This document shows positions 44,501 to 63,769 of a stretch of DNA of 64,000 nt, one piece after another; positions within the stretch are counted from its first letter, which is position 1, and each line of letters begins with the position of its first letter. The translations under genes and the position numbers were made by a program. This DNA comes from Turritopsis dohrnii (Eukaryota > Cnidaria > Hydrozoa > Anthoathecata > Oceaniidae): the NCBI GenBank assembly GCA_027922465.2, contig BQMF02000607.1, forward strand, positions 62,001-126,000, written 5' to 3'. The notes beneath the pieces were generated by a model. That model saw nothing but the letters and a program-made list of their open reading frames with translations. It was not told the origin of the DNA and did not search any database.

Positions 44501-47500
44501 ACCTACAATGATACTCTTTTTATTCATAAATTTAACTTCACAAAAAACCGATTCTAGGCAGCCACTTCAGTAAAGAAGGGTAGAAAAGTCATCACGAGGA
44601 ACACATGTCAATTTGTTCGAGATGAAAAGGCCTGCGCTGCCCACTTCAGTTTCTGAGGTTGTGTGCATAAAATAATAGTCTTGAAGGTTGATATTACCTG
44701 ATGAATTGTTATGTAGTCTAGTTTCAGTAATACCCAATATACCCAAGATATCAAAAGAAAGTAAAGTTGATAAAAAAGAAAGTTCACTAAAGTGTTTTTC
44801 TAAAGACAAAATGTTCAAATGAAAAAAATTAAAAAATTTCTTTAGAGGGAATAGATTTAAAGTCTTCACACAGTGAACCAGCAACCTCGAAAGTCTTTTT
44901 AATTTTTTTTTGAAAGTATGAAATTCTTTTTTGGAATAATTCTTTGGTAGTGTTCATATAAGACTGCTCAAATTCCAGAAAGTTATGCGAAAATTTAGCT
45001 TAACAATGAAATTTTTAGGCTTTAATGTCAGTAGCTATGTTTTAGTGATGAAACCTCTAACATTTCATACTGAAGAGCCTTCATTGACTGGAGCATATCT
45101 ATGCCAACAAATTAAAATGGGACAAAAACAAAGCCAGTGGACCAAATGAATATCGCCATCTCATAAAATTTCACAGTTATAATCACTGGAATAATTATGC
45201 ACTTTAATTACCTTCTTTTTTTTGGTTTATGAACCGACGTGAAAGTATGGTCATTAAAATTCCAAGAATAAGTCCAGTTACCAATCCACCCATCAAAGCA
45301 CCAATGATATTTCCCATACATTTTGTACAAACATCTGAAGAATCAAACATAAGTCGTTCAGTTATTACGGTTTTTGCAACACAAGTACCACTATCAGACT
45401 CAGTAATATTTTAACTAATTGTCATTCATAGCCATCTTATTTTTATTTTTATCAATCATTTCAATCTTTAGTTGATCACAGTATACAAGAAAATGAAGCA
45501 ATGTTATTCCAATTGTGATCAATGCTAATGTATGTTAGCAAAGAACTACTCACCATATAAAATACCTATTTATAAACTACATACCTTCTTTTGTTGTAGT
45601 TGAAGGTTTTGTAGGAACAAAAGTAATATTTGCTACTCTAGATCTTTGTTGCCCTCGATAGGATGCTGTTACTTTCACACTTGTTGCATTTTTCCTTTCG
45701 TCTTTCGTAGAGAATGGTATGTCCACCAACTGTTTTGTAGTTTGGATCGATTTCATTACTTTTAATGATTTATCAAATACATCAACTGTATAATTTACAG
45801 AACATTGACCATAATCTTCTTTTTGCCAGGTGATTTTCACATTTTCTTCGGTTATTTCAGTTTGAATCACAGGTTCATCAAGTGTAACTATGAATGATTG
45901 AAAATACAAACGTCTATAAGACTGTAAAAACTCAATAGATGTGATAACTCACATAGCAGATCTACTTACAGTTGACATAAACAGTTGTGGTGTAGTCAAA
46001 TACACTGTCATTCCAACCACTGATTGAATAGCTTAGCTCATATCCACACGATTGTCTTGTTAGCGGTGGCATCGTCACGTTGTAAGTGTATTCATGTTTA
46101 CTGTTATTACTATACAATCCTGTTAAAGTATTATCGCGAAATTTCCACACAACATTAGGTCGAGGAATACCAGATGCCACTATCTGGATTGTTGGTTTGT
46201 CATTATCATCAAAGTATAATTCCGATGCCACTGATTGTATGAGTTTTGGATAAGCTGAAGGAATCGGAAATTATTCACATACATCTTCTTCTAAGTTAAG
46301 CCTTTCCATAGATATAAAGTCATAAACAGTCATAAAGAAAACAGCTTGTAGCCTGCGTAAAAGTTATACATTTTAAATTTAGGGAAGTATGCAAAAGGTA
46401 GCTCAAATTTTCTATTAGCCGGTTACAAAACTAGAAGAGTACACAAAAGGTAGATGAAAGTATTGGACCAAGTGCTATTGTTGCTTAATTAGGAATAAAG
46501 AAATTCAACATGAAATCCTTTTCAAAACGTAATTATGTATTTCCCTATTGGCCCCATAGGGCATTCTCCTTCTCCTCCTTATCCGTTCACTGCTCAGCAT
46601 TGTACTCTGGCCTATTTTATTTTTCAGTAGTGATGCAGAGATGCATTGGAAGGCTTTTGTTTTCTGCTAGCTTTTAAAATGATCGAAGAGACAAACCGTA
46701 AAATGATGTAAATAAATGGTTTTAGTTCAGTGTTGTCCTAAAAGCTTTTGTATTACATTTTGAATGAAGGTGTGAAAAACAGAAAAACAGTTATGGTGTT
46801 TTGTTTGTTAATGGTGATGGGTAATTAAATTCTTGGAACAGTAAAAGATTGAATCTGTGACTTCAGAAAAAAGGTGAAAGTTCATCATTATGAAAAGCCA
46901 GGTTGTTATTTTACTTAATGATGTATAGCCCAACCTAAATACACATGATGATGTACTACTACAGAAAAGGAAATCCTTTGCTTTATGCGGAGAACAGTCT
47001 GTGATGTCAATTCAAAGAGAATATATGTAGCCAGTAGAAATGTGGTGTCGTATAAGAAGTTTAGAAAACCAATTAGTCCATGTATGATTTTTTAATTGAG
47101 ACAAATAATATATTATGAAAGAATATGGTTGACTTTGTTTGCTTCCTAGATAGTTGTCTAATTTAACAACATAAACATAGTGTTCTGTGGATAAATTCCA
47201 TTAATGCACATATTGTTTTGATGCTGTATATATATATATATGATATTCTAAATCAAAAACACATTCCATCATGGCAGTCTTAAAATAAAAACTCTACACA
47301 TCCTTTGCAGTCAATCAAACCAGAACACAAACATCTGCTTTCATTTGGAATTTAGGAAAGTCATTCTTTGAATTAACAAAACCTTTAGGAGCTCTTATTA
47401 GGAAGAAATAATGTTTGCAAACATATATTTTGAGTTACTGATATTTATTCAAAATATTTAAATTTAATTTAGTAAATTGTCATTTTAAGCTCTTCTCTTT

Positions 47501-49794
47501 TTAGAAAACACCTCTCTTTTTTGAAAATAACCCTTTTTATCCTAATTTGAATTGTTACACATAATATTTGTTAGCAGAGATTGGTTTTTGATTGCCTTTG
47601 ATTGTTTTTTTTCCTTATATGTCTACCCCAAAGTATTTTGATAATATAGCATTGTAGTATTTCAATAAGGCTTGAAAGGTTTTGTATTGTTCTTTCTTAA
47701 ACCTTTGTACAAATTTGATTGTACAATGTTGTAAATGTTATATGAGTTACAAAAAACGATTGTTTTGTTGACTTCCAGTCGTTCCTGTGATTTTATGGTA
47801 AAAGAGATAGGAAACTTGTCAAGCTCCGCAAAAATAAAGATCATACATTCACCATGATTAAATTGCCTTATTGATGCTGTTGTTGATGTGTTCTGCAAAG
47901 AGCTATTTATGGGAAATGTTAGTTGTACTTAGGACTTATGATTTATAGCTACACCTATGGTAACTTTTCAGCCGCATTTAACTCATCGGCAAGAATTTTT
48001 AGTGAAACCTTATCATTTGACCATGAACATCTTTATTTCATAATAAGTTCAAAATAAGTTCTGTTGTTTTATTAAATTCAAATCCACCCTGATTATCAAT
48101 GTACACACAATAATTGATAAAATGGCAACTTTGACAAAATTTATAGTCGCATTTTTTGCTAACAGTGTTTAGTTCTCAAATCGGTTAAAACGTAATTATT
48201 AGGATACATTTAAAACATGAAATGCAAAAATTTGATTCATGCTAGATTCATCCTTGTTATGTCATTAAGTGAAGTGATAGAATAGTTTGCTATAGAACAT
48301 AATGATAAAATGAAGAATAAAGAAAAATTATAAGAAAAAGTGTATTCTATGTTCACTTTGAATGAAATTAGCAATTAGGAATTAACAGTTCCTATATTTT
48401 AACCAGCTTTTTAGTTTGTGCTAAAATTCCATCTTTGGGAATATTTTATTACAAAATACTGTTATACGAGTGTCACTAAATATGTTGGCGATTCACCATG
48501 CGCAAGTGAATGTACCATAGCGCTGGGTCGACCCATGCCATGTGAGGGAAATTGGGTAGATGATACATCAGGTTTTGCAGGGAGGTCATCCAGAAGAGCA
48601 CAGGCCCTTGATTGGGTTTGTGTCACTCATGAGAGTGTCAAATACTTCGGAGCCTCCAGCCTAAGCCGTGGCCCCTCCTGGAAAGCAAATGCAATAGCAA
48701 CTGAGTCAGGCTAGCCACGTAAAACAATACCAAATAAATAAATAAATAAATAAATATTCCACATCACTGATTGTATCTACGTCCCCTACCTTCAGAAATA
48801 TAATAGGGAGAAAAGGGATTATACAATCTAAAAATTGCTTATATGACGTTACCTGAACCACCTGTTTCTTTCAATGTATCGATGTTGTGGGTCTGTTTCT
48901 CTGGTCCTTCACCGTTTTTGTTTTTTGCACTGACGGCAAATCGGTACACAGTGGAAGATTCCAGATTACTGATGATTTTTTCTGTCACCTTTCCCGACAG
49001 ATGAGTAATTTTCTGTTCTCCCCCAGTTTCAACATTTCGAATACTTATCACATACGCAGTGACTGGTGGCAATGAATTGGCTGCCGGCTCGCTCCAAATC
49101 AATTTCACGCTAGTTTGTTTGACGTCGACCACCTTTAATAATGGCACTTGTCCTGGTCTGCCAGAATCAGATGCTTAAAGAGAGTAGCAAATAAACTTTA
49201 GAGTTCACAGTTAAATCTATTACAACCAAAATAGTGTATAGGGACGCACTTATGACTGTAACAGTACTGATTTTAGTGTCCGTGCCACCAACACCTGTAG
49301 CTTGACACCTGTTGCATAATAAAAGAACAAGTGATAGATATAGAAAGAGTAGGCCTGTTAACTATACTTGAAATTCTTTCTGTTAATTTAATTGGTTGCT
49401 GTTTTTCTAAAGAAATTTTCATAACATGCTGGTTCTTCAATGCAAACGCAAATTTCGTGACCCACAAAGAAATGTCAGATAAAAATGCACAAGCAATGTT
49501 TTTGTAAGCATCGTAACTATTTTCCATCAAATTCCAGAATGAAAAGAACGAACCTATAAGCTGCAGAATCCTCCAGAATAACATGCTCTAATAACAGATC
49601 ACTTCCTCCATCAACTGATTGGATTTTAATGCCAGACGTGGCCGAACTGATTTTCGTGTTTTTAGCAGCAAGATACCATTCAAATTTAAGCGCTTCAGAA
49701 GACGTTCCTTTACATGATAGAGTAAATTTTCCTCCTTCTCTCACAGTTGTGGTGACGGGTGTTAGTGAGATGCTTGGTGGTGGAGCATTAGTTT
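29331..49794 (-). CDS. IgSF/FN3 transmembrane receptor with ITIM-like tail (gene B; joined exons)
   Basis: Seven minus-strand exons join in frame: 49554-49794 and 49250-49308 (Ig), 48853-49173 (FN3), 45970-46254 (Ig-like), 45585-45887 (FN3-like), 45212-45334 (TM) and 29331-29545 (tail, stop). Every intron between domains is phase 1, as in exon-shuffled receptors. The predicted product is a type I plasma-membrane receptor. Its tail has five YxxV/L/I motifs, three in ITIM form. Signal-peptide exons are not seen and would lie right of 49794, possibly beyond the 13.6-kb transposon at 50177. The last intron (29546-45211) is 15.7 kb and filled with nested transposons. Domain order recalls the Alr allorecognition family of Hydractinia, with an extra canonical FN3. 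The function is inference. The paralogue at 11.2-16.5 kb is dead, whereas I see no stop or broken splice site here. Confidence 0.65.
29546..30174. other. Intron of receptor B before the nested LINE
   Basis: No gene. It contains a short (GTAA)n microsatellite near 29930-29942 and A/T runs that mark the 3' end of the LINE starting at about 30175. Confidence 0.4.
30175..31240 (-). pseudogene. LINE, 3' half (RT core and C-terminal domain), left of BEL insertion
   Basis: Frames 30918-31301 and 30284-30856 on the minus strand encode the RT core ([14 protein letters not shown] near 31085) and the thumb/C-terminal domain ([22 protein letters not shown]). Frames 30195-30443 and 30284-30856 overlap, showing frameshifts near 30300-30400. 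The C-terminal domain is closely related to that at 18718-19563. The upstream half of this same copy is at 42940-44990. The BEL/Pao element 31246-42939 splits it, and the reading frame is continuous across the deduced empty site. Confidence 0.8.
31241..31245. repeat. BEL/Pao target duplication, left copy (TGCGA)
   Basis: TGCGA here and at 42940-42944 bracket the BEL/Pao element. A 5-bp duplication is usual for this group. Confidence 0.75.
31333..33113 (+). mobile_element. mariner-type (DD37D) transposon in BEL 5' LTR
   Basis: The left end CAGGGTGATTCAAAAAAATG follows TA. Long inverted repeats (31350-31495 against 32966-33105, sharing TTTGACGTAACTTTTTTTCT) flank one transposase gene. The right end has lost about 13 bp of the terminal repeat just inside the border. 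The empty site is seen in the sister LTR near 42257. It is probably not mobile from the damaged right end, although the gene is open. Confidence 0.85.
31703..32797 (+). CDS. Tc1/mariner transposase, DD37D type, open
   Basis: The frame of 364 codons has an N-terminal helix-turn-helix region (residues 20-60, [27 protein letters not shown]), a GRPR linker-type motif (SGRPRT), and the catalytic triad in [17 protein letters not shown] and SPDLNVLD. Between the second and third acids there are 37 residues if the last Asp of SPDLNVLD is used, the spacing of maT-like mariners. An in-frame ATG at 31739 (MSFSEEDK) is an alternative start and fits homologues better. It cuts and pastes the element at TA sites. 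No stop or shift is seen. Confidence 0.9.
   Translation: MSNRTLSFASFKMSFSEEDKIIIKHYRIDKNYGVKRLLSEFPNKGWTKGGLRHLLTKIDKTEDVKRVPGSGRPRTAVTEEIAEEVEEMICSQEEFPGTHKSQRKISETLNILQSSVSRISSQCLGLTAYRKTKVQDLRDSDREKRVVRTKRLLRMMTKENIGKTFFTDEKLFKLNQPRNTQNDRVYAVNKSDISLEGIAVKRKTFPKNVMISVGVSKLEKTSVFFVEKGVKINSEYYMREILDEMLPEMSALSGGDYIFLQDGARSHTSKASIAYLGEECPCYVKPHFWPPNSPDLNVLDFSVRGDFESKVWKHKPTDVESLKEAIKAEWAVYPQENIDNAIDSFKKRMKYIVEADGGHIEHYR
33682..34685 (-). other. Hydrophobic ORF fragments, unknown
   Basis: Three minus-strand frames of 87-105 codons contain several membrane-like segments (for example [19 protein letters not shown]). They overlap in different frames and could be fragments of one multi-pass membrane protein gene carried in the insertion. 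I cannot name a family, and chance AT-rich ORFs remain possible. Confidence 0.2.
34752..35169. mobile_element. MITE, 418 bp, TA target
   Basis: CCTTAAAGGGATTT at the left and an inverted CCTTAAGGAGATTTACTTTT at the right are flanked by TA (34750-34751, 35170-35171). Internal inverted words such as TTCGCAAAAATAAATC recur. The element lies inside the 2.3-kb insertion in the BEL LTR and is the deepest nested insertion on this side. Confidence 0.75.
35913..37766 (+). pseudogene. BEL/Pao gag-like region with zinc knuckle, frameshifted
   Basis: Coding starts 52 bp after the 5' LTR ([10 protein letters not shown]) and continues through frames 36117-36311, 36295-36795, 36638-37069 and 37098-37766, so several frameshifts and stops break it. 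The last frame has a gag-type helical region ([17 protein letters not shown]) and then Cys/His clusters ([25 protein letters not shown]) as in BEL/Pao zinc knuckles. Alanine/threonine-rich repeats of ATQAEATVT type occupy 36340-36480. The protease that should follow is not recognisable. Confidence 0.7.
37790..38186 (+). pseudogene. BEL/Pao pol, start of reverse transcriptase
   Basis: The frame from about 37797 encodes the region leading into the RT ([38 protein letters not shown]). It ends at 38186 where a LINE is inserted, and resumes at 39209 with [20 protein letters not shown] duplication flanks the insert. Confidence 0.75.
38187..39208 (-). mobile_element. 5'-truncated LINE in BEL pol, GTAGA target duplication
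   Basis: The minus-strand frame 38326-39219 encodes the RT from the FADDN motif (NFADDNTLY) through the C-terminal domain ([28 protein letters not shown]). The 3' end carries an (AAAT)n tail at 38187-38222 (reverse complement). GTAGA stands at 38182-38186 and 39209-39213, and the BEL frame is continuous across the deduced empty site. The RT is open from the truncation to its stop. Confidence 0.85.
39209..41990 (+). pseudogene. BEL/Pao pol: RT, RNase H and integrase, frameshifted
   Basis: Frames 39185-39448 and 39461-39682 hold the RT ([15 protein letters not shown]). Frame 40208-41152 holds the RNase H region ([29 protein letters not shown]) and the start of integrase. Frame 41100-41951 holds the integrase core with D in AVDMFEPF, D in LRSDNGTNF and E in [11 protein letters not shown] pol C-terminal domain follows. 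RT is interrupted near 39450 and 39680-40200 is out of frame. An envelope gene is not seen. Confidence 0.8.
42172..42939 (+). repeat. 3' LTR of BEL/Pao element, containing a MITE
   Basis: It starts TATTCCAGCC after a purine-rich GAGTGGAGCCAGA and ends GTTACA before the TGCGA target copy. It matches the three blocks of the 5' LTR once the MITE at 42351-42581 is removed. Confidence 0.85.
42351..42581. mobile_element. MITE, 231 bp, in BEL 3' LTR
   Basis: GACCTTTCTCGAATTTC at the left and its near-inverse GAAATTCGGGAAAGGTC at the right, with TA on either side. The 5' LTR copy near 33182 lacks it, so it entered after the BEL element. Confidence 0.85.
42940..44990 (-). pseudogene. LINE, 5' half (endonuclease and RT start), right of BEL insertion
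   Basis: Minus-strand frames carry the APE endonuclease (44567-44884: [22 protein letters not shown]; 44009-44527: [25 protein letters not shown]) and the first RT blocks (42935-43360: [31 protein letters not shown]). The region 43360-44008 is out of frame. The copy continues at 31240 on the far side of the BEL element. The true 5' end is unclear, near 44990. Confidence 0.8.
45212..45334 (-). CDS. Transmembrane exon of receptor B
   Basis: Acceptor GATTCTTCAG and donor GTAATT bound 123 nt, phase 1 at both ends. Two cysteines (DVCTKC) precede a glycine-rich span ([17 protein letters not shown]) and a basic SRRFIN stop-transfer. The GxxxG-like spacing could favour helix-helix contact in the membrane. 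It splices in frame to 29331-29545. Confidence 0.75.
45585..45887 (-). CDS. FN3-like membrane-proximal domain exon of receptor B
   Basis: The acceptor ATTCATAG and donor GTATGT bound a 303-nt exon. The strand pattern ([33 protein letters not shown]) fits an FN3-like sandwich, followed by a Thr-rich stalk ([10 protein letters not shown]). In Alr proteins the domain next to the membrane is also described as FN3-like. Confidence 0.7.
45970..46254 (-). CDS. Ig-like domain exon of receptor B
   Basis: The acceptor CCTTCAG and donor GTAAGT bound 285 nt, phase 1 at both ends. The Ig core Trp is in VVWKF. Cys residues occur late (QSCGY and the last codons, YVNC), not at the usual B- and F-strand positions, so the disulphide pattern is atypical. 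The exon aligns over its length with the decayed exon at 16173-16456. Confidence 0.7.
46255..48469. other. Intron of receptor B
   Basis: No gene. It contains a short (TA)n run near 47228 and AT-rich sequence with no clear transposon ends. Confidence 0.45.
48470..48757 (+). mobile_element. Retroposon 3' fragment with (AAAT)n tail
   Basis: A block of clearly higher G+C than its surroundings ends in GGCTAGCCACGTAAAAC and an (AAAT)n tail. It looks like the 3' end of a non-LTR element or a SINE mobilised by one. The frame 48418-48714 across it is not a convincing protein. Confidence 0.5.
48853..49173 (-). CDS. Fibronectin type III exon of receptor B
   Basis: A 321-nt phase-1 exon with a canonical FN3 pattern: the B-strand Trp (VKLIWSEP), the C-strand Tyr ([10 protein letters not shown]), the E-F Leu ([16 protein letters not shown]) and the NGEGP turn. 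It is flanked by acceptor TCTTTAAG and donor GTAACG. It is not seen in paralogue A. Confidence 0.8.
49250..49308 (-). CDS. Short exon completing the first Ig domain of receptor B
   Basis: The 59-nt exon supplies the F-strand Cys (YRCQATG when joined to the previous exon) and the G strand. The entering phase is 2 and the leaving phase 1. The acceptor is ATGCAACAG and the donor GTGCGT. Confidence 0.7.
49554..49794 (-). CDS. First Ig domain exon of receptor B
   Basis: Acceptor TATTGCAG and donor GTTCGT bound 241 nt. Ig features are the B-strand Cys (FTLSCKG), the Trp (FEWYL) and the D-x-A-x-Y motif (EDSAAYR). The matching F-strand Cys is in the next exon, so an intron splits this domain. Confidence 0.75.
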
Positions 49795-50170: not shown

Positions 50171-50176
50171 TTAGTG
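50171..50176. repeat. 6-bp target duplication, left copy (TTAGTG)
   Basis: TTAGTG abuts the left TIR. The same six bases follow the right TIR at 63764-63769. Confidence 0.85.
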
Positions 50177-50310
50177 TATGGTGGCCGAGAAGGGCCATCG
50201 AGAAAAAAATTTCAAAATCAAGAACAAGGTTTTCAAAATCGTAAAAAAAATATTCAAAATCGAGAAAAAAAATTTCAAAATCAAAATCAAGAAATTAAAA
50301 TTGAAAATTC
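50177..50310 (+). repeat. Left TIR and subterminal TTCAAAATC repeats
   Basis: After the TIR, copies of TTTCAAAATCGAGAAAAAA (about 18-19 bp) are iterated four to five times. They are inverted relative to those at 63595-63740 and are likely transposase binding sites. Confidence 0.8.
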
Positions 50311-50409
50311 TTTCGGAGCCGTAATTTTGCAAGGATAATAAATAAATATGGCGAACATACCGTGGATCAAAGGTGACATTTGTTCGTCATCTTTTTTTTT
50401 TTTTTTTTT

Positions 50410-50580
50410 TTTAAAAAAAAGTCTTCTTGTAAAAGTAGTCGTGTTTAGTATTACTTTTTTTTTAAAAAAAAAAAAGTCTTCTTGTAAAAGTAGTCGTGTT
50501 TAGTATTACTTTCTTTTTAAAAAAAAAGTCTTCTTGTGAAAGTAGTCGTGTTTAGTATTACTTTTTTTTTATCAAAAAGA
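50410..50580. repeat. Three A/T-rich 52-55-bp tandem units
   Basis: GTCTTCTTGTAAAAGTAGTC occurs at 50421, 50476 and 50528 (one change) between T8-18/A7-13 tracts, so each unit can fold back on itself. It lies just upstream of the integrase A promoter region. Confidence 0.8.
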
Positions 50581-50778
50581 AGTATCCATGTAACATGGAG
50601 ATGTAGCAGTTTAATTCTTTTTTAACAAGAAAAACAAAACAACAAGAAAAAAAAAACAACCGCTGATATTTTTGTTACACTTTTTTAATTTGTTCAAAAA
50701 GTGCATGATTCAATAAGTTGTTGTGCTTTTGTGTTTTTACTTTTCTATAGTTACTCGGTTGTCGTACATTTCGGTTTT

Positions 50779-50786
50779 CATATATA
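50779..50786 (+). promoter_or_regulatory. TATA box candidate for integrase A
   Basis: CATATATAAGACACGTG begins about 120 bp before the chosen ATG (50899). The TATATAAG core is the best TATA match in the region. Confidence 0.4.
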
Positions 50787-50898
50787 AGACACGTGTAGCT
50801 CCTGCCAGTTGTCTTTTCAGGTACACGTTATCATAGCACAAACAGGTAAAGTTCAATTTCTCTTAGTTAAAGTTTTCTTCCACACGCTGCGACTTTTC

Positions 50899-52104
50899 AT
50901 GGCATTCAGTCCTCGTTTTGTTATAGACGACATGCAAAGACAGTCGAGGGACAGAAATGATGTCATTAAGCAATACTTTCATTATGGTTATTCGTACAAG
51001 GAAATAATCAGTTTGTTAGAAGTACAGCATGGTTGCAAAGTTAGTGTGCGACAACTCAATCGTATACTGAGGTCTCTGTCACTTTATAGAAGGTATGATA
51101 AAACGTCGTTGAACCGTGTAATTGACGAAGTTGGTGAAGAATTGCAAGGGTCCGGATCTTCGTTTGGTTATAGACTAATGCATCAAAAATTACGGTCGAA
51201 AGGACTTGTTGTTGACCACCACACAGTTAGATTGGTTATAAAAAGTCTTGATCCGGATGGCGTGAAAGCCAGGGCAGCTAAAAGGCTGACGCGCCGTATA
51301 TATTTATCACAAGGTCCGAATTTTACCTGGCATGTTGACGGATACGATAAACTCAAACCGTTCGGATTTGCAATCCACGGTGCTATCGACGGTTATAGCA
51401 GGAGAATTCTGTGGCTAAATGTAGCGGCTAGTAACAACAACCCGAAAGTTATAGCAGATTATTTTGTCAATTGTGTAAAATCATTGCAATTTGTACCTCG
51501 CTTAATTCGAGCTGACAGAGGTTCAGAAAATGTCGTGTTGGGCGGAATACAGCGCTTTCTCCGCAGACAGTTCACAGATTCATTTGCTGGTGATGCAAGT
51601 TTTATGTATGGACCATCTACACGCAACCAACGAATAGAATCTTGGTGGTCACTTTTCCGACGCAATCGGTGTAACTGGTGGATCAACTTTTTCAAAGATC
51701 TCTGCGAAACTGTTACATTAGATTTGAGTCTGAACTACCACGTAGAATGTATTCGTTTTTGCTACATGGGAATTCTTCGCCAGGAGCTGAATGAAACGCA
51801 GAATTTATGGAATAATCATCGCATTCGATATATTCGAAATTCAGAGTGTCCAGCAGGCCGACCTGAAATTTTATTTTTTGCTCCCCATTTGTCAGGTGGA
51901 ACAGATAGAAGTTATAGTATAACCGCCTCTGATATAGCGCTAGCAAAGCAATTTTGTGAGGAGCCGTCAGAATTAGGCTGTTCAGACGAATTCGTGGAAC
52001 TAGCACAGATTATAATGCAAGAAAACAACTTCAACATGCCTACGACTATAGCAGAGGCAACGAGTCTTTTGGAAACACTTTTGACAGAAATCGACAGTCT
52101 TTGA
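50899..52104 (+). CDS. IS3-like DDE integrase/transposase A, intact
   Basis: The frame of 401 codons begins at ATG 50899 (MAFSPRF). An upstream extension to 50809 lacks an ATG, so this start is preferred. Residues 30-62 form a helix-turn-helix region. The rve-type catalytic core has D147 in WHVDGYDKLKPFGF, D206 in RADRGSEN and E247 in NQRIESWW. The SNNNP and SFAGD motifs are typical of this animal integrase family. A Glu-rich C-terminus follows. It would cut and join the element at its TIRs. It converges with the HECT gene at 52991-55550. No stop or frameshift is visible, and all three acidic residues are present, unlike copy B. Confidence 0.88.
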   Translation: MAFSPRFVIDDMQRQSRDRNDVIKQYFHYGYSYKEIISLLEVQHGCKVSVRQLNRILRSLSLYRRYDKTSLNRVIDEVGEELQGSGSSFGYRLMHQKLRSKGLVVDHHTVRLVIKSLDPDGVKARAAKRLTRRIYLSQGPNFTWHVDGYDKLKPFGFAIHGAIDGYSRRILWLNVAASNNNPKVIADYFVNCVKSLQFVPRLIRADRGSENVVLGGIQRFLRRQFTDSFAGDASFMYGPSTRNQRIESWWSLFRRNRCNWWINFFKDLCETVTLDLSLNYHVECIRFCYMGILRQELNETQNLWNNHRIRYIRNSECPAGRPEILFFAPHLSGGTDRSYSITASDIALAKQFCEEPSELGCSDEFVELAQIIMQENNFNMPTTIAEATSLLETLLTEIDSL

Positions 52105-52990
52105 AGTTAAGATAAAATAGTTCATGGTTTTGTATCTCACTAATAATTTTGCAATAACAAGTGAACATATACATCATATAAACACAACATTTCTACTAAA
52201 ATTGCTTCACATACCCATTAAACAATTCCCAGGCGGAACAAAGCCGAAGGATAAAGTTTGATGGATTAGTTTTTGAGAATATTCTTTAAGCCAACGTTAA
52301 CCAAAATGAGAAAAATATAATTAAACCATAAAATCAACTCACGCGAACCCACCTCAAGCCATAGGTTAACGTAGGGAAAAACTTCAAAAAATTCGATAGT
52401 GAGAACCAAGCTTAAAAACCAAAGTAAAGGTCTAGAATAATTTATCACTAATTTCACAACGCCGTAAAAATTAGTTGTTTTTTTCTCTAAACATACACAT
52501 AGAACCAACTGATATTGCTCAACAAAATATTTTATCTAAGATATGTGGCACTTTGCTTTAAAAACAGTAGACAAACACTTTTTTCTGAAAGTCAGGAATG
52601 AAATGTGTCAAAACAGAAATATCTCTTACATTAATCTAAAACTTATATAATCTGTTAAAAATGCCACAAAACAACTTTCTCATTAAGAAAATTAAGAATA
52701 GAATATAAAACACAGCAAAATCAAACTGTCTGCACTGGTAAGTATAAAGTAAATTTATGAGTTCACTTTCTTTGGGAAAAAATAACTTTTACGGAATAAA
52801 AACAATAAAACTATTGACATTTGTGTTGGCAATAACATAATATCCAATCAATGCAACAAGCTTTCAAAACCAGTTTGAAATGTTACAATATTTTTAAACA
52901 AAAACAGCAAATTGCTATCACAAACTTAACATAACATATATGTAGAAACAAACTTCCAAAGTACAACACATTAGTATGCAATAGCATCAA
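52105..52990. other. Convergent 3' flank between integrase A and HECT A
   Basis: AT-rich 886 bp with several AATAAA-like signals on both strands. No gene seen. Confidence 0.5.
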
Positions 52991-55550
52991 TTACAAAGCA
53001 TCATGTACTGCCCATGTGTCCTCACTACCAATGTACGTAGACAAATTCTGTCTCAAAGCTGTAAATGAATTATACTGTCTCGGCAATATCAATATCTTAA
53101 AGCAAGTTTTCGATATAGGTCTCAAATGATCCAATTTTTGATTTGAAAACTGTACACGTATCACAGAACTTGGATTGAAATTCGTACCTCCAGTGATGAA
53201 TCTAATGAATTTGGATAACTCGGTTTTACTTGTGCTTCTTATATAACGGTGTAGCCAAGTGGTAATTCGATCATCATTTTTACATACAGGAAAAGTTTCT
53301 AGACTTTTAATAACAATGTCAGGAGTTGGTATAGTTACATGATACAAAGCATCCACTGTTTCTGGTGATATTTTGTTGAAAAGAGGCCCAAAACCCTTTC
53401 CCATTGATTGCATAGCAAAGCAAGGCATTTGAATCAGAGCAATTCTCGCTGCCTTGGTAATCAAATCCATTACATTACTTGAAGTTGGAAGAGTGAAGAT
53501 AGAATACTCAGTCAATATATCCATGATTGGCTGTGTTTCTTTTGATTCACCTCGAGAAAATGAGTTGAGTAGTTCAAATTCTTGAGGAGTCACAAAATGC
53601 ATGAATGAATTTTGAAGATCAGTATCAGTTACATCTTTACACAATAGTTGTTTAAACGACGATTTACATAACTGTATTGGGAAAATATCATACAAAACAT
53701 ACCCATGGTATATAATTTTCCCAATTACTTCTAGTTCTTCTTCATCAAATAACGTTGGCGGAACCTTCTCAAAAAATCCATCCATTCTTGAATAAAGTTG
53801 ATCATAGAATGCTGAGTAAGCATCACGACATACCCCATCTCCAACTGCGTCTTCACCACAAAAAGAAATAGCTATTGTTCCTTTAATAGTTTGTCTTTTT
53901 TTGTACAAGGTTAACATATCCTCATAGATTTTATCACGTGAAACTGTGACATGTTGTTGTTCTTGTTTTAAATGTTCTTTCTCCTGATTACGTAGCCGTT
54001 GAAATTTACTGTATTCCATATCATAATCTGTATCCTGAGGTTTGCCTATAACCTCTGAAGCAACTTCTGATGACTTTGTTGCGGACGATTCTTCTGATTC
54101 CATATTATACACACCTGACACTACAGTAGTATCAAGATCAAACTCGTGCTTAGTATTGAATCCTTTAAACGCTACTTCTGGTGACATAATCATAGGAGAT
54201 TCCACTTCTTGCATGTTATAGACACCAGGTACTGCAACATTATTAACATCAACAACCTTCCCCTTGTAGTCTATCAGACAAAAATATTCTGGACGTACTG
54301 AAAAGCTCCCAATCCAATCATATACCTCTAAGAAAAAGCAGCCATCTCTAAACAACCTAACTTTTTTCCCACAATGGATGTGTCTGACTGAAATTGTAAT
54401 ATGAGCTTCATCTAGCAATGGTTCTGGTTTAACCCTTTCTTTTCTTGCATTCATTACTTCTAACAGTCTATTTTCTTCAGCTTTCATTCTTTCTTTTTCT
54501 CTATCACTTCTCAGCGATTCCATGTACTCCTCATCTTGTTTTTTAATCAATGACATTCTTTCTTCACTTGTTTCTGAAACTCTATTGGTTGATGTTAATG
54601 GTAAGGTGACATGACTACTCTGTGGCAATGACGTCAAATCAACAACAGCTGGCATATCAGAGGAGGCTGAAAAAGATGATGATATAATATATACAGTAAT
54701 CTAGGACATAAAGATTTTAACTTTTCTAAAAGACACAAAAGTTATTTTTTAAAGCATCTATATGTCAAATATTGTCATATCACAGCAAGAGATGAAAATT
54801 TCCTGAATGATTAAGTCGAATTTTTGGTATACTAATTTTATTTTCATACCAAGCTGTTACATTTTTCTCCTGCATATATAAATATAAGATTTCGTTTTAA
54901 CATTTTATTGTCATATCACATAAATCTTTTCACACACCAATCAATGCATCAATACTAACAAGAAATACAACAATACTACCTTTGCTGTCAGTTCTTGAGG
55001 GATGTTCAATAGTAAAATCGTCGTCTGAATCATTCTCGTATCCATCTACATCTAGGAGTTTTTGTATAACTGATTTCTCTTTTGTTAGTAGATACAGTCG
55101 AGTCTTTGCGAGCTTATGTTGATTAATGTAATCCTGAAGTGTAATTTTTTCAGCTTCAAAAATTGCCACTGCATTGTAATTTCCAACTGCTCTATGAAAG
55201 TTTTTAATAGGTTTTTTAACATTACAAAAGGTAGCTTCTCCATCAGGAAAAAAAATTGCTTCCATAGGTTGGCTATAAAACTTGAACTGGCTACCTATAT
55301 ACATCGTGTTCAAATGTGATAAGTAAATACTGAAGACTTTGTTGAAGTTTTTTTTAAACTTATACATTTTATGTGTATAGGTAGCACTTTTAATAATATA
55401 TATAATAAATAGTTTAGTAGATATAGATGATACATTTATTATAGAGAGAGAAAGAGAGAGAGAGGAAGAACATTCACAACACACCTTGTTGTCTTTGAAA
55501 TTTTGAACCACTACATCTGATACACCCCTTTCGAGCAAGAATTCACATAT
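52991..55550 (-). CDS. HECT-type E3 ubiquitin ligase-like gene A, spliced
   Basis: The last exon (52991-54666) begins after TTTTTCAG and encodes over 550 residues. It has a charged coiled-coil segment, a small beta domain (KVRLFRDGCFFLEVYDWIG), a linker with repeated VPGVYNM-type words, then a HECT-like domain (FCGEDAVGDGVCRDAYSAF) ending with the catalytic-type Cys in SKTCFKILILPRQY (about residue 518 of the frame from MPAVV). The second exon (ending at 54980 with donor GTAGTA) joins it in frame as DSK-ASSD. A further short exon, 55485-55550, encodes ICEFLLERGVSD, a SAM/UBA-like helix. Its link to the second exon is not in phase as I read it. The HECT Cys forms a thioester with ubiquitin. 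The first exon is not found. Confidence 0.7.
54980..55320 (-). CDS. Second coding exon of HECT gene A
   Basis: Open on the minus strand with FYSQPMEAIFFPDGEATF and AEKITLQDYINQHKLAKTRLYLLTKE, ending at donor GTAGTA (54978-54979 complement). The 3' join to 54666 is in frame. The 5' border is uncertain: candidate acceptors near 55310-55345 give different phases. Confidence 0.55.
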
Positions 55551-55859
55551 CTATAGATACAATCAGAAAAAAGGGACATAACATTCAAAGTTTGAAAATA
55601 TAAGTGGTGCTTGGTTTATTTATACTGGCATATTTATTTCTCGAAGAATAGTAAATCAAAACAGTCGAAACATTCTTCAATTCAAAACATTATAGGTGAT
55701 TATGTTTCAAACCTTCCTGAAAAGTGGTTTTACACTCACTTGTTCAACAGAAAAAGTTCCAGTTTCAGACATGTTCTCCGCACCACTGGTCAGCATCTTT
55801 ATAATTTTGTTTTGTTGATGTTGCTAACTTTTACGACAACCGATAATTTCACCACGTGG

Positions 55860-56320
55860 TTGTTCAAAAAAAAAAAGAGCGACGAATTTTTAGCGTGTGA
55901 AACGAGTCGTGTTTTTTTTAAGCATTTTTTAAGCTAAAAAAAGAACGACAAATAAACATAAAATGAGTTGTGTTTTTTTTCACAGAAAAAAGCAAGAAAA
56001 TGCACATAATGTGAGTCACGTTTTTTTTTAAAAAAAGAGTGACAAAAAACAAAATACATAAGTCGCGTTTTTTTTTTTTTAAAAAAAAAGAGCGACAAAA
56101 AAAACAAAATACATAAGTCGCGTTTTTTTTTTTTAAAAAAAAAGAGCGACAAAAAAAAACAAAATACATAAGTCGCGTTTTTTTTTAAAAAAAAAGAGTG
56201 ACAAAAAACAAAATACATAAGTCCCGTTTTTTTTTTTTAAAAAAAAAGAGCGACAAAAAAAAACAAAATACATAAGTCGCGTTTTTTTTTTTTTAAAAAA
56301 AAAAGAGCGACAAAAAACAA
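55860..56320. repeat. Array of self-complementary A/T-rich 52-bp units
   Basis: At least five regular units (ATAAGTCGCG at about 56060, 56113, 56168, 56218 with a change, 56271) and some degenerate ones. Each has GTCGCG, T10-14, A8-10, GAGCGAC, so each folds into a long hairpin. Long translated frames over it are low complexity only. Confidence 0.85.
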
Positions 56321-56324
56321 ACAA

Positions 56325-57900
56325 GATGCCCTACCGGGCAGAAGTATTCCTGCGGATGACTGTAAGACTTTCTGGAGCCTTTTCAGAAAGAAATGAGTGT
56401 TAGTTCACGCTTTAAAACCATATGCATAATGCGGAATGATGTTTGCAGTATTTTACATTTTACTTTTTAGCTACGATAACTATTAAACTTTGTTGTTTCA
56501 TATAAAACTTCAGTCTTGCATCAATTTAGAGATTTTTTTAAAAAGATTTCCATTCGAAGTTGCACTCCCTAAAGCATCTTCAAGTAGCAATTAACTAATT
56601 AAAAGATTATCGCGTTAAGAATAATCTGTGCTTTAAAAGGTGAATGTTTGTTCACGGTTTAAAACAATATGCATAATGTGGTATGATGTTCTTTGTGTTT
56701 TACAGTTTATCTTGTAGCTGTGAAAGAAGTAATATTTGTTATTTCATATAAACTGCACTGTTTTGCATCATTTAGAGATTTTTTCAAAAAGTTTTTTATT
56801 CATAGTTATATTCCCTAAAGCATCTTCAAAAAGTAATTAAGTAATGAAAACATTGTCACATTAAGTTTTGAATGGAAAATCTGTGGCGTAAATAGTAATA
56901 GCTTCGAATTCATTTAATTACAATCCCGAGAGCATCATAAAAGTTAAGAGACTTTGAAAAATTTTGCTGGAGATCAAGCTTAAAAAAGAACACCGTCAGT
57001 TTAAAAATCCATTAGAGAACACTCTTCCGTGGACGTTTCAAAATACTCCTTTTAAAACTATACAGTATGAAAATCTTTATGTTGTTTGTACCTGAACTTC
57101 ATAATAAAAAACTTTTACTTGGCCTTGCGAAATAATAAAAATATCTGTGTTTCCTTTTTATCGTCAGCTTGATAGTATACAAATTTTAGAATCATACAAT
57201 ATTTTAAATTCGACTAGTCAATTAAAAAAGTGGTCATCTATTGATTAACAAAATGGGTATAAGCTGATGAGGAAGATGAGCTGTGCTTCAAGATTCCAGA
57301 GCTTTATAAAAACAGGATAGCTTACCTAGGAACATGAAATAGAAAATTGTATTATATTTAGAAAAAGACTAATAGAAACCTTACGCATTTTTTTAAATCG
57401 ATGTAAGCATACCGTTTTTGTAGTCGTTCATATCTGATTTGAAGCATCAAAAACTGCTTATTTATCAGGAATAACTACTAACAGTATTAGTTTCACGTAG
57501 ATTATCAGTTTGGATCATAAATGTTCTTGATTCTTTTAAGTTTGACAGCCGTATAACCTCTTCTATATCCATATATTCAACCAAGAAATTTTCTCAGATC
57601 TACGCGTGCTTCTTCGCTTCCATTTTTAAAACAACTACGGAAAACGTAAGAACGTTGCATAAGACTCACGTGAAACAACATTTCTACCTTGGCATCTGCG
57701 ATTTAGCCATATGTCAACTATTCCTTTCAGTAGAGCTTATATTATACACCTTTAGAGTCTTTTCAAGCAAAGTACTTGCACACAATGAATGTAGTGTGAG
57801 TTAAGATATTTAAAGCATAAAAAAAATGTAAGTTTGGAACTTAGAGGATTTGACTGACTATTTCCCATCGACAAAAATCGGTCTAGGTTTGGACAGTGAA
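56325..57900 (+). repeat. 1.6-kb repeat, copy 1
   Basis: It starts GATGCCCTACCGGGCAG, a small hairpin, and ends CTAGGTTTGGACAGTG plus an A-rich run. No coding frame. An internal weak duplication links 56389-56600 to 56640-56830. Copy 2 lies head to tail 1600 bp further on. Confidence 0.85.
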
Positions 57901-57924
57901 AAAAAACAAAACAAAACAAAACAA

Positions 57925-59425
57925 GATGCCCTACCGGGCAGAAGTATTCCTGCAGATGACTGTAAGACTTTCTGGATCCTTTTCAGAAAGAAATGAGTGT
58001 TAGTTCACGCTTTAAAACCATATGCATAATGCGGAATGATGTTTGCAGTATTTTACATTTTACCTTTTAGCTACGATAATTACTAAACTTTGTTGTTTCA
58101 TATAAAACTTCAGTCTTGCATCAATTTAGAGATTTTTTTAAAAAGATTTCCATTCGAAGTTGTACTCCCTAAAGCATTTTCAAGAAGCAATTAACTAATT
58201 AAAAGATTATCGTGTTAAGAATAATCCGTGCTTTAAAAGGTGAATGTGAAAGAAGTAATATTTGTTATTTCATATAAACTGCACTGTTTTGCATCATTTA
58301 GAGATTTTTTCAAAAAGTTTTTTATTCATAGTTTTATTCCCTAAAGCATCTTCAAAAAATAATAAAGTAATGAAAACTTTGTCACATTAAGTTTTGAATG
58401 GAAAATCTGTGGCGTAAATAGTAATAACTTCGAATTCATTTAATTACATTCCCGAGAGCATCATAAACGTTAAGATACTTTGAAAAATTTTGCCGGAGAT
58501 CAAGCTTAAAAAGGAACACCGTCAGTTTAAAAATCCATTAGAGAACACTCTTCCGTGGACGTTTCAAAATACTCCTTTTAAAACTATACAGTATGAAAAT
58601 CTTTATGTTGTTTGTACCTGAACTTCATAATAAAAACTTTTACTTGGCCTTGCGAAATAATAAAAATATCTGTGTTTCCTTTTTATCGTCAGCTTGATAG
58701 TATACAAATTTTAGAATCATACAATATTTTAAATTCGACTAGTCAATTAAAAAATTGGTCATCTATTGATTAATAAAATGGGTATAAGCTGATGAGGAAG
58801 ATGAGCTGTGCTTCAAGATTCCAGAGCTTTATAAAAACAGGGTAGCTTATCTAGGAACATGAATTAAAAAATTGTATTACATTTAGAAAGACTAATAGAA
58901 ATCTTACGCATTAAATCGATAGTCATTGGTAGTCGTTCATATCTGTTTTGAAGCATCAAGAACTGCTTATTTATCAAGAATGACTACTAAGAATATTAGT
59001 TTTACGTAGATTATCAGTTTGGATCATAAATGTTCTTGATTCTTTTAAGTTTTACAGCCGTACTACAACCTCTTCTATATCCATATATTCAACAAATAAA
59101 CTTTCACAGATCTACGCATGCTTCTTCGCTTCCATTTTTAAAACAACTACGGAAAACGTCATAACGTTGCATAAGACTCACATGAAACAACATTTCTATC
59201 TGGCATCTGCGATTTAGCCATATGTTAATTATTCCTTTCACTAAAGCTTATATTTTACACTTTTAGAGTCTTTTCAAGCAAAGTACTTGTATACAATGAA
59301 TATAGTGTGAGTTTAGACTGCTAAATCATAAAAAGAATGTAAGTTGGGAACATTAATGATTTGAGTGGCTATTTCCCATCGACAAAAATTGGTCTAGGTT
59401 TGGACAGTGAAAAAAAAAAAAAAAA
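57925..59425 (+). repeat. 1.6-kb repeat, copy 2, ending in poly(A)
   Basis: It matches copy 1 over its length but lacks about 74 bp (equivalent to 56647-56720) and ends in a 25-base A run. The head-to-tail pair with A-rich ends looks like a retroposed or tandemly duplicated unit inserted in the hairpin array, part of which resumes at about 59480. Confidence 0.85.
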
Positions 59426-59609
59426 AAAAAAAAAACACGAACGGTTTCAAAGTATTCCTTGCTTACGCAGGAATACAAATACATAAGTCGCGTTTTTTTA
59501 AACAAAAAACAACAGAAGAAAAAAAAGAAAAACGACCGAACGACAACATTGGCGTGATTTTTTTTCAATTTTCAAGAAGATCACCTTAAAAAAAAAAGAT
59601 GACCAAAAA

Positions 59610-60188
59610 ATGTCACCTCTGATCCACCGTACGAACAGGATCTGCAGTGTGTTTTGTCGCGGTTGTGGTTTTTCGTTGGAAAGTGAGGATAGATTTTGCT
59701 TTAGATGCGGTAGAAAGGTTAAATCTGACCATTCAGGTAGCTCAAGTATATTAGTAACGAATAATACTGACGTTGTCGGTGATGCAACGATGAAAGCTGA
59801 AAAAAGACTTCTTAAACTTTCAGAATACCAGGACGAAAAACGTAAACAACTTGTATCACATTTCAAGAAACCTAAATCCAATCAAAGTTCAAAGCCTCGC
59901 AGCTCTGGTGGTAATGTTGATAATAAAAAATCAGTTCTTGTGAATGTTGGTATCATGACTAGGGATGATTTTGGTAATTTGAAGCCTGTACGTGGAAAAA
60001 AACTGCCAATAAAGGTTTTTGAAAAGTGTTCTTCTACCGAATTAAAGTTAGCTTCGATAGATAAGCACGCATCTCATGACCAAACGTTTTGCAAATTAAA
60101 GGAGTACTGCTTGTTATATCCGGATGGAAAAGAGGTTATATGCTTGCCGGGAGTTCCACTATCTGAGGAGCCAAAACCACAGTTCTAA
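59610..60188 (+). pseudogene. Zinc-ribbon N-terminal part of HECT gene B, cut by a hairpin
   Basis: The frame starts MSPLIHRTN and has a C-x2-C / C-x2-C zinc ribbon (CRGCGF, CFRCGRK) at about residues 17-36, a basic linker, and a ubiquitin-fold-like domain (VNVGIMTRDDFGNLKPVRGKKLPI, EYCLLYPDGKEV). It stops inside the left arm of a perfect inverted repeat (60178-60203). The natural continuation is in another frame on the other side, starting near 60208. The protein is therefore broken here. Confidence 0.7.
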
Positions 60189-60236
60189 TTTATAATCCTG
60201 TAGACTAAAACTACAGGATTATAAATTAGAACTGTG
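60178..60236. repeat. Perfect 26-bp inverted repeat with 7-bp loop
   Basis: Arms 60178-60203 and 60211-60236 are exact reverse complements. The right arm is coding (LQDYKLELC in the HECT frame), so the left arm is probably an inverted copy of it made by template switching. It adds a stop and shifts the frame. Confidence 0.95.
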
Positions 60237-61733
60237 CAAACCATACTCTCAAATGATATTCTACTTTTGTATGACATCACAGTTCGAAGGTGATACGCAC
60301 AAGAGTAGTGATTACATTAAACTCGGCTATCTTGATGACAGTCACTGTCAACCTCCACTATTACCCTATCAAATGTCTATTCCAAATTACTTTGAAGCAG
60401 ACAATATCCTGTCAGATTCTATTGTGGATGTAGATAGTAACTTGGAAACAGTAAGTCAACCTCCTGATAACCAGGATTTTTCTACAAACCAAGCCTCGAC
60501 TTCTTCATTGCATGCTTCAAGTTTCAATACATTTAGTGAAGGATCAATAGTCAATGACAGTGTTCCAACTTGTTCAGATAGCACTTTGAAATCGAATTTC
60601 TATAACGAGTTGAAGAAATTGTAGAATATTTTTACAAGTGACCCTGATGACAAGTATAAACTAGTTATTTGTCGGCGTGAGGTATGGAAGGATACAAACG
60701 AAAAATTGCAACGTTTTTTCTTAAAAGGTATTAAGACTATTAAAGTCCAATTCATTGGTGAGGAAGCAGTAGATGAGGGAGGAACTTTGCAAGAATTTTT
60801 GAAGATGCTCCAAGGTTTATAATGCAAGAAAATTCATCATTTACATTTTTGCATGATATTGAAAAGGTATCAAATGGGGATTTCTATCGCTTTGGGATAC
60901 TCATTGCCCTGTCCCTTTTGCAAGGCTCTCCAGGCCCTCGAAACCTTATGCTAGCTGTTGCATCATACCTACTAGATGGACCTTCAGTAAAGCCTGATAT
61001 TGGATGTGCCTTATTTTGAGTTGCAGGAAAAATTACAACAACTATCTCAATGCGAAAATGAAGCATTATTCTCAGAGGAACTGACAATTTACCCGAACGT
61101 TTTGATTGTGGTGTTACCAAAAGTTCAGTGTCATTTTCAGAGAAATGGAATCTGATCGCAAACTTTGCATATCACTGTTCAATACCGATCTGTCTTCAGG
61201 AAATGAATGAAGTAAAGAAAGGTATGGAAATTCTTGGGGTTATTGACTTAATGAAAGAACATTATCAGGAAGCAGTAAAAGAACTAGAAATGTGTCAAGT
61301 CCAAACATGGGAGGAAGTGAATTGCTTGATTGGTAAAGTTATTTATTCAAGTGTAACTGATGAAACTGATTTAGTTAACAGAAATAAAAAAGATTTAGAG
61401 GAGGATATTTACTACAATTTTACAAACATGCTTGAGAGTTTGCAGCTTGAAGAAGCATCCGGGATGAATGTGATTGATCTAGATTTGAAAGCTGATGGAA
61501 ATGAAATTACAATTTCCAAACCATTCACTCCAGAAGATATTGTTAGATTTCGTACTGGTTCAAAGTTTGTTAGTCCTTCAATTATGAACACAGGAATCAT
61601 TTGTTTTGTTCACTCAACACCAACAAATGATAATTCTGGTAGGCATGTCACTGCGGACACATGCTCCAGCCAGCAGTTCAAACTCAACTTGATAGAGGAT
61701 ATTCTTATGGCTCCTTGGTTTGGGAAAGTTTAA
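60208..61733 (+). pseudogene. HECT-type ligase gene B, decayed
   Basis: Coding continues from the hairpin (KPYSQMIFYFCM), then a Ser/Asn-rich linker, an in-frame TAG at 60622-60624, and the start of the HECT domain (KVQFIGEEAVDEGG). A frameshift lies near 60790-60825 and another near 61020. The last frame (61128-61733) holds the distal lobe with SGRHVTADTCSSQ, where the Cys could be the catalytic one. No introns, in contrast to HECT gene A. It converges with integrase B. Sequence is clearly diverged from A, so this is not a recent duplicate. Confidence 0.75.
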
Positions 61734-62332
61734 AAATTGTTTATATTTCTTTAAACTTATCTGAATGATATTTTTACTTATGTTACTTCACTAAGTACAT
61801 TTTTAGTTTCATTTTTTGAAAATAAGCTTGGATTTTGTTGCCATTTTGTGCTGTTTGTACTTCCACTTGATATTTTTGTTTGCTTAAGTTGATCTTTTAT
61901 AAGCTTGTATGTATTTACTTTAAGGGGAGATATTTTTGTAGAAGAAATTTTGGCCCTAAATCATAAAAGTAAATTCTGTAAAAATAGTTATGAGTGACGA
62001 AATTTCTACTGCAAAAGTTGAGTTTTGTTATTGGTTAAGATCCACATTTTATCAGTCTGCTAAAGTGAAAAGCTAATTCTGATGTATAATACAATAACAA
62101 GTCACGTTTTAATAGCTATAGTCACGTTTTAATAGCTCATAAGATAATTTTATCCTACAAGTTGAGTTGTTTGTTGTTGTACTATACTTATGGCGTTTCT
62201 TTTGTTTTGTTAAAAAGGACGATTTTGTTGCTTTATAAACTTTTCCTATTCATTCTACGTCTTCAATCCCCACAACGCACCACGAAATACTTTCCACTAT
62301 CTTTAAACAGCATGTGATATGAGTTCTAAACA
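61734..62332. other. Convergent 3' flank between HECT B and integrase B
   Basis: No gene. A short tandem repeat AGTCACGTTTTAATAGCT occurs twice near 62100-62140. Confidence 0.5.
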
Positions 62333-63660
62333 TTAATTTCTACCACTATTCCAATCGTTAGGCGGGTGAACAAGATTTAGCTCGTTAACAAGATAGATAA
62401 AATATTCACTTAGTTCTTCATCATGTTCTTCTATTGCATCCTCCGCCCAATCGAGAAAGTCGTTCTCTGTTAAGACTTGGTTTACTTGTTCTACGCTTAC
62501 TGCACGCTTACAGTTAAGATATCCACGTAATTCAGGGAGAAAAAAGAGTTCCTCAGGTCGGCCTGGGATAGTATCATGTCTAGATTGGCGGATGTAATGT
62601 GAGTTCCAAAGTTTCATAACTTCGTCAAGTTCGTGTTGAAATTAAAGCAGAGAATTTGAGCCATGCGCATTCTAAGTGCAATGAGTTACCAAATACCATT
62701 TGATTCCTTGAAACTAGGTCTTTGAAAAAATCGATTAACCAAGACGTAAATCCTCGCTTACAATGCGACCAGAAATTCGCTATTCGTTGATTGTAATGAG
62801 AAGAACCATACGTATGAAACAAACTTGCATTGAATAGACGCACTAAGTCCATTTTCCGTTCCACAGTCGGTTCTAAGATTTTCTGGACAAAATCCAAACT
62901 TGACTACACTTTTTAAGTAACAATAAGCTGGTACAATGGGGTTGTTATTAGACCAAATGCTTTTCCTGGAAAAGCCATCTATGCAACCATGGATGGGAAA
63001 GCCAAATGGTTTAAGTTTGTCGTAACCATCCATGTGCCACACTGCGTTGGCACCAGGTGAAATGTATTTTCTTCTTCTTAATCTCCTGGCTTTCCTAACA
63101 CGGGTCCCCTCAGGGTCAATTTCTTTTAATAATGACATAATTTTATCACGTGCCACAGAGATTCCATAAGACTGGCGTAAAAAGTGCCACATGCCTCTAT
63201 AGCCACGCATAGATGACGGACCTTCGACTTCATGTTCAATGATCTCCCTTAATACATCGTCAAAGACTTCAGAGTCATTTCTTTTTAAGCCGAATTCACT
63301 AAGTCTTCGTTTTAGTGTTCTGACACTCATTTTTATTCCATGATGGAGCTTTAAAAACTTTACAATTACATCGATAGGGTGACCAGCATAAAATTAATAT
63401 CGGATCAACTCTTTTTCTGAACAAACAACGGTTTTCATGGTCGTCAAATCAAATTCCATCCCTCTCTTACATCCACAAGAAGAACAAAATATTTCTTCAT
63501 CTCCAAGAGCTTTTCCACAGTTGTGGCAATACGTTACGTGTGGAACTGAATCCGGTTTCGTGTTCAATGGCTCTGTTTGACATCCTGATAATTTTTCCTC
63601 GATTTTGAATTTTTTTTCTCGATTTTGAATTTTTTTTCTCGATTTTGAATTTTTTTTCAC
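62333..63660 (-). pseudogene. IS3-like integrase B with N-terminal zinc ribbon, inactivated
   Basis: Read on the minus strand, a zinc ribbon (YCHNCGKAL, CSSCGCKRG; 63397-63570) leads in the same frame, across one TAA at 63394-63396, into the helix-turn-helix (MSVRTLKRRLSEFG) and the catalytic core (WHMDGYDKLKPFGF, RTDCGTENG). A small deletion removes residues before SNNNP, a frameshift falls near 62850-62890, and the third acidic residue is Ala (NQRIANFW where copy A has NQRIESWW). Another shift precedes the C-terminal part (62333-62617). The frames upstream of 63594 are translated terminal repeats. It cannot be active. Confidence 0.85.
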
Positions 63661-63763
63661 GATTTTGAATTTTTTTCACGATTTTGAAATTTTTTTTCAC
63701 GATTTTGAAATTTTGTTCTCGATTTTGAAATTTTTTTCTCGATGGCCCCTCTCGGCCACCATA
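63595..63763 (-). repeat. Right TIR and subterminal repeats
   Basis: Eight or so CTCGATTTTGAATTTTTTT-type units of 18-19 bp end in the TIR CTCGGCCACCATA. They mirror 50177-50310. Confidence 0.85.
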
Positions 63764-63769
63764 TTAGTG
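63764..63769. repeat. 6-bp target duplication, right copy (TTAGTG)
   Basis: It matches 50171-50176 exactly and abuts the right TIR. Confidence 0.85.

Follow-up and report, generated by a model that had tools for sequence, protein, structure and literature searches.

IS3EU transposons, which form one lineage with GingerRoot, have been described with TA..TA termini and with target site duplications (TSDs) that are usually 6 bp long (PMC10045372). In the TET-bearing IS3EU elements of fungi, a TET/JBP gene lies between the transposase gene and an alpha-kinase gene, the latter two being oppositely oriented, and escape from methylation silencing has been proposed for TET/JBP in these elements (PMC12730594). 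Neither report uses the word HECT in its main text. A search of the literature by title and start of abstract found no HECT-bearing transposon; a prior description in Repbase or in the GingerRoot paper, which lay outside that search, is possible.

Herein, we analysed a window of 64,000 nucleotides from the hydrozoan Turritopsis dohrnii (assembly GCA_027922465.2, contig BQMF02000607.1, positions 62,001 to 126,000; C607:62001-126000 in our numbering). An initial annotation of this window had noticed a DDE integrase and a HECT ubiquitin ligase paired twice and had proposed them as a possible two-gene mobile module and a candidate for an undescribed system. The latter term was overstated: the transposons fit the known IS3EU/GingerRoot superfamily (PMC10045372) by the domain of their core, by their TA..TA ends and by TSDs of 6 bp, and an alpha-kinase is already on record as a second gene in fungi (PMC12730594). 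What the window holds belongs to a known superfamily: a real two-gene transposon, found repeatedly in this genome, whose HECT cargo we did not find in print.

A family-A element inside the HECT gene of a family-B element

The two pairs of integrase and HECT genes are real, but they are explained by one transposon nested in another and not by adjacent modules. They had been placed at 50899-63660; the observation was confirmed there, although the true limits are wider, at 50177-63763 for the outer element B and 50358-59631 for the inner element A. Element B, an IS3EU-type transposon of 13,587 bp including A (about 4.3 kb once A and one TSD copy are subtracted), has terminal repeats beginning TATGGTGGCCGAGA.., in which 24 of 25 end bases match, and is flanked by an exact TSD, TTAGTG, at 50171-50176 and 63764-63769. 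The 20 bases at 50177 return inverted at 63744-63763 with one mismatch. No other occurrence of this 20-base repeat was found in the window at up to three mismatches, and none of 100 shuffles held two. Tandem repeats of about 20 bp, detected by Tandem Repeats Finder, adjoin the right end of B (63592-63743).

Element A, likewise of IS3EU type, is 9,274 bp long and has the inverted ends TACCGTGGATCAAAGGTGACATTTGTTCGTCATC and TACGGTGGATCAGAGGTGACATTTTTTGGTCATC, with 22 of 25 end bases matching and an exact TSD of its own, CGAACA, at 50352-50357 and 59632-59637. Tandem Repeats Finder also located repeats within the integrase-side end (50403-50634) and the HECT-side end (55936-56321) of A. The left tip of A had at first been guessed at TATGG near 50347, and the TSD scan put it at 50358.

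The insertion point of A falls after base 10 of the HECT coding sequence of B. The start of HECT B, ATGGCGAACA (50348-50357, + strand), is separated by A from the remainder of the gene, which is decayed (59632-61733, + strand). When the flanks of A were rejoined, ATGGCGAACA was continued by GGATCTGCAG..., and the sequence translated as MANRICSVFCRGCGFSLE..., a zinc ribbon with which HECT B begins; the start of its relative at locus L011 of the same genome reads MAIFCGGCG. Since the rejoined flanks restore a HECT B start like that of L011, A was inserted in the first codons of the HECT gene of B. A family-A copy thus sits inside the HECT gene of a decayed family-B copy, while the integrase and the main HECT exon of A are open. 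The inner ends' own TSD, CGAACA, and the HECT B start obtained from the rejoined flanks together exclude a single composite element made of two adjacent halves.

The interval 56344-59476 of A is bounded by inverted 11-bp ends, GTATTCCTGCG, and contains a unit of about 1.6 kb twice, head to tail, the matching pieces being 92-95% alike. This segment is probably a third insertion, inside A; no TSD beyond 2 bp was found for it. A minus this segment would be about 6.1 kb, close to the length of its relative L033 (6.7 kb).

In the surroundings, a 270-bp segment (48487-48756) is 97% identical to positions 1349-1618 of L018, in the integrase region of that locus, and is likely a short dispersed repeat. 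Inspection by eye of the open reading frames at 44009-44884 and 45577-49147 suggested a fragment resembling the endonuclease of a non-LTR retrotransposon and exons of fibronectin-type-III-like character, the latter probably from a host gene next to the insertion.

Genes of the two elements

In both pairs the integrase gene had been said to run toward the HECT gene, tail to tail, and this is the case: integrase A (IntA, + strand) faces HECT A (- strand), and HECT B (+ strand) faces integrase B (IntB, - strand). IntA (50899-52104; 401 aa) contains the rva_4 integrase core (PF24764, E = 5e-32), with the catalytic triad D147, D206 and E247, of which the last two are separated by 40 residues. Across 37 aligned sequences (IntA and 36 homologues), D206 was invariant and D147 and E247 were at least 90% conserved. 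In IS3EU/GingerRoot, the core is expected to have no HHCC zinc motif in front of it. The predicted structure of IntA (pLDDT 90) starts with helices, and B and L011 have a CxxC...CxxC ribbon at this place. Against NCBIfam, the core matched IS3 (E = 3.5e-9) and IS481 (E = 1.5e-5), both under the curated cut-offs. Among the best 120 of 812 relatives, five carried a species name, and all five were cnidarian (one from Hydractinia, two each from Clytia and Acropora).

IntB (62336-63530) is decayed and lies in several frames, and was recognised by a PF24764 match of one piece (E = 1e-10) and by tblastn to IntA; like HECT B, it is interrupted by stops and frame changes. A zinc ribbon stands ahead of the IntB core at 63475-63528. 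On integrases, such a CxxC...CxxC ribbon was seen only in B and L011, and the HECT proteins of the same two elements start with a ribbon (HECT B, 59655-59708) or with a ribbon-like segment whose second CxxC is incomplete (L011), the Pfam zinc-ribbon scores for these ribbons being under the curated cut-offs.

The main exon of HECT A (52991-54666, - strand; PF00632, E = 2e-11) contains the catalytic Cys518 in the motif TCF, and when HECT A was aligned with 21 homologues (22 sequences), this residue showed at least 90% conservation. The equivalent Cys is visible by eye in the HECTs of other families that extend to that region. The fold of HECT A matched UBR5 and HUWE1, with structural alignment rows that span mainly residues 201-546 and cover little of the N-terminus. 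An upstream exon (54980-55217, - strand, 5' limit uncertain) matched the profile of the HECT A family at positions 25-90 (E = 3e-7). It is separated from the main exon by a predicted GT...AG intron (54667-54979, - strand), across which the frame is open and which resembles the exon split in L033 and L034. One HECT gene had been reported to have introns and the other none; HECT A does have one sequence-supported GT-AG intron, but HECT B, whose HECT domain begins at about 60625, is too decayed to be called intronless.

With regard to a candidate UBX (p97 adaptor) domain in the N-terminus of HECT A, a profile of the whole HECT A family matched FAF1 (E = 2e-8); profiles of the ubiquitin-like part only missed FAF1 at E up to 1, and Pfam UBX matched one of the 22 family members (E = 0.019). 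Fingers in the N-termini of element HECTs, which were found with a motif of our own making and received no name from Pfam, are presumably UBZ-like. A protein search with the HECT of L021 returned 12 matches, none bearing a name. Relatives in viral contigs were sought by pattern: one search gave no matches, and another gave seven pattern matches, none of which was a relative.

IntA and IntB share 37% identity over aligned profile columns (41-51% in tblastn pieces); for the two HECT proteins, A and B, the figure is about 18%. The A and B proteins are therefore clearly diverged, as first noticed, and the pairs are not the product of a recent duplication, in agreement with the earlier view that the pairing is not simply one such event.

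Recurrence and joint divergence of the pair in the genome

The genome sampled comprises 436 Mb in 891 contigs. A search for HECT gave at least 139 matches; 129 of 548 candidates were scored, and the counts are therefore lower bounds. The main sample consisted of 20 stretches of 9-9.5 kb around near-full-length, mostly single-frame HECT matches, which were picked by eye; similar HECT rows on C439, C2, C405, C548 and C108, among others, were left out. Two A-type loci, L033 and L034, were added from HECT rows with open frames of more than 500 aa, and four host-type controls from multi-exon rows. All loci were chosen via the HECT search, so the counts express the presence of an integrase given a HECT.

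A profile of 120 homologues detected the rva_4 integrase in 16 of the 20 element-type HECT loci, with the two genes convergent in 14 and on one strand in two (L009 and L013). L033 and L034 both hold an integrase and a HECT in convergent orientation, the latter with an upstream and a main exon; in L033 the integrase and the two-exon HECT are open and the ends near-perfect. No integrase was found in the four spliced host-type HECT loci (9.5 kb each), and no integrase match was found in the eight short loci L001-L008. Counted by family, 12 of 14 are convergent (P = 3e-6 if orientation were random) and two have both genes on one strand. Four loci of the main sample had no integrase (L014, L015, L016 and L019). 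Comparison with its relative L013 shows that the stretch of L014 stops short of the integrase, and L019 is without the integrase side of the L018 family. L015 and L016, in which no integrase lies within 9.5 kb, have 99-100% identity, so that the two may represent different haplotypes of a single locus.

Twelve bounded elements from 10 families, A and B included, contain both genes inside matching terminal repeats (22-25 of 25 end bases) with exact 6-bp TSDs, and all 12 have TA..TA termini. TA was required in the scan for A, the first end scans being run without that requirement; TSD length was fixed at 6 in the scans, and 12 of 12 were exact at that length. Ends with a TSD were recovered in 10 of 20 loci versus 2 of 362 mismatched locus pairs, in which the left and right flanks came from different families. 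This set of 20 differs from the main sample by the removal of L016 and L024 and the inclusion of L033 and L034, and the scan gave no ends in L009, L014, L015, L018, L019, L022, L025, L026, L027 and L034. Same-family copies at different TSDs (L017/L020 and L021/L028) are 97-99% identical inward from the repeat tips, their homology beginning at the tips and stopping at the tips or within 2 bases. The proposal of a mobile module made of a DDE integrase and a HECT gene was thus upheld, in that the pair recurs in the genome, usually convergent, with both genes between terminal repeats with TSDs. As a side observation, the HECT-integrase pair of the L021 family is present twice in direct tandem within 6 kb of L024 (L024:1873-7307).

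The initial annotation had also suggested that the two proteins be tested for shared divergence. Integrase and HECT distances were correlated across the 14 families (Mantel r = 0.83, p = 5e-5), in favour of such divergence, with some pairs discordant. The integrases form two groups, one of A, L033, L034, B, L011 and L020 and the other of the remaining eight families, and the within-group correlations were r = 0.80 (p = 0.046; 6 families) and r = 0.44 (p = 0.012; 8 families). Transposase and HECT diverge together in the sample of 14 families from this genome. Given that ends and TSDs enclose both genes, that an integrase is present at most sampled loci and that divergence is correlated, HECT is a recurrent second gene of these transposons of IS3EU/GingerRoot kind, usually placed tail to tail to the transposase between TA..TA ends with 6-bp TSDs.

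Identities between the 14 families range from 24 to 71% for the integrases and from 10 to 50% for the HECTs. L012 and L027, with 71% integrase identity and 33% HECT identity, are a possible case of HECT exchange between element families, and some such swaps are likely. The HECT A type is distant from the other HECTs (14-21% identity, and 10-13% to L011, whose piece misses the C-terminal part). In a tree of 12 families, IntA was placed with IntB, but HECT A was apart from HECT B; this discordance may stem from swaps, from repeated capture or from a long-branch effect. Within families, dN/dS was 0.25-1.69 (three of the pairs are integrases, and one pair without synonymous changes gave no value), values that resemble those of dead copies and give no indication of selection since insertion. 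Between families, dN/dS was 0.21-0.52 in 14 of 21 pairs among seven second-group loci, including L015, which has no integrase; with saturated dS these values are rough, and in the other seven pairs saturation left no computable value.

Role of the ligase and relation to known systems

Two-gene transposons that carry a transposase and a HECT are the best overall explanation, to which we give a probability of roughly 85%; their structure is well supported, and the ligase would serve the element's own cycle. The resemblance of HECT A to HUWE1 and UBR5 and of another type to UBE3A, all of them host proteins, could suggest host HECT genes that lie by chance beside transposons. This is scarcely credible, since the HECT is inside terminal repeats in 12 elements, the same-family copies at different TSDs already contradict it and none of the four spliced host-type loci has an integrase in 9.5 kb. 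A captured HECT that travels as a passenger, without a role for the element, would agree with the near-neutral change between recent copies and with the existence of a HECT locus without integrase in 9.5 kb (L015/L016), but we hold it to be quite improbable: the pair is found again and again across 14 families (integrase identity 24-71%), keeps one orientation in 12 of them and diverges in a correlated manner, and long open HECT frames with the catalytic Cys are retained.

Everything beyond the encoding of an active-looking ligase is what we infer. Our first choice, held tentatively and at somewhat less than even odds, is that the ligase tags the transposase or end-bound proteins, by which a stable post-integration complex would be cleared or the transposase dose limited. 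Co-localisation of the two proteins would be in keeping with the zinc-ribbon-like start that transposase and ligase share in two B-type elements. On the other hand, the HECT may degrade host repressors of the transposon, comparable to the TET/JBP proposal for fungal transposons including IS3EU, some of which carry TET/JBP and an alpha-kinase and for which methylation escape has been proposed (PMC12730594); the wide HECT divergence (10-50% identity in 14 families) would fit an arms race. We consider such anti-silencing doubtful, as no host target was indicated in the sequences examined and the ribbon-like start shared by transposase and ligase in two elements of B type speaks more for the complex of the element itself. 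The transposition complex is thus our first guess for the target of the ligase, with host silencing factors as the main rival.

The phage Mu transposase is removed by ClpX, and a stable integration complex needs dismantling. By analogy with ClpX and MuA, the element ligase could be part of the transposition machinery and tag the transposase on newly joined DNA, from which the host segregase p97 and the proteasome would strip it. This specific scheme is decidedly unlikely in our estimate; the leads for it would be the FAF1-like N-terminus of HECT A, a candidate, and the ribbon-like start common to the B-type transposase and ligase.

If the overall explanation is right, a DNA transposon superfamily often carries a ubiquitin ligase, and ubiquitin control of transposition would become a testable, element-encoded step. 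The elements would also be a source of compact HECT ligases that differ in their N-termini and could help explain the many HECT matches in this genome. As a warning for annotation, HECT "genes" of a single exon in animal genomes may belong to transposons. With its open genes and near-perfect ends, L033 is a subject for a cell assay.

The elements are like IS3EU/GingerRoot in their integrase-like DDE transposase akin to bacterial IS3/IS481, their TA..TA termini and their 6-bp TSDs (PMC10045372). With the fungal IS3EU elements that bear TET/JBP and an alpha-kinase, they share a non-transposase enzyme gene in opposite orientation within the same element, convergent or divergent arrangement being left unstated in that report; unlike them, they carry an E3 ligase, whereas the cargo of the elements in fungal hosts is a kinase and a dioxygenase (PMC12730594). 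The likeness to phage Mu and ClpX is a works-like analogy only: here the ubiquitin ligase is element-encoded, and the removal step is a proposal. With the HECT E3 ligases HUWE1, UBR5, UBE3A and ITCH, the element proteins, which are putative ubiquitin ligases, have in common the HECT fold and the catalytic Cys. In contrast to these ligases, the element HECTs are compact (about 430-790 aa in open frames and homologues) and transposon-carried, and their N-termini vary between a UBZ-like finger, a zinc ribbon and a helix with a ubiquitin-like part.
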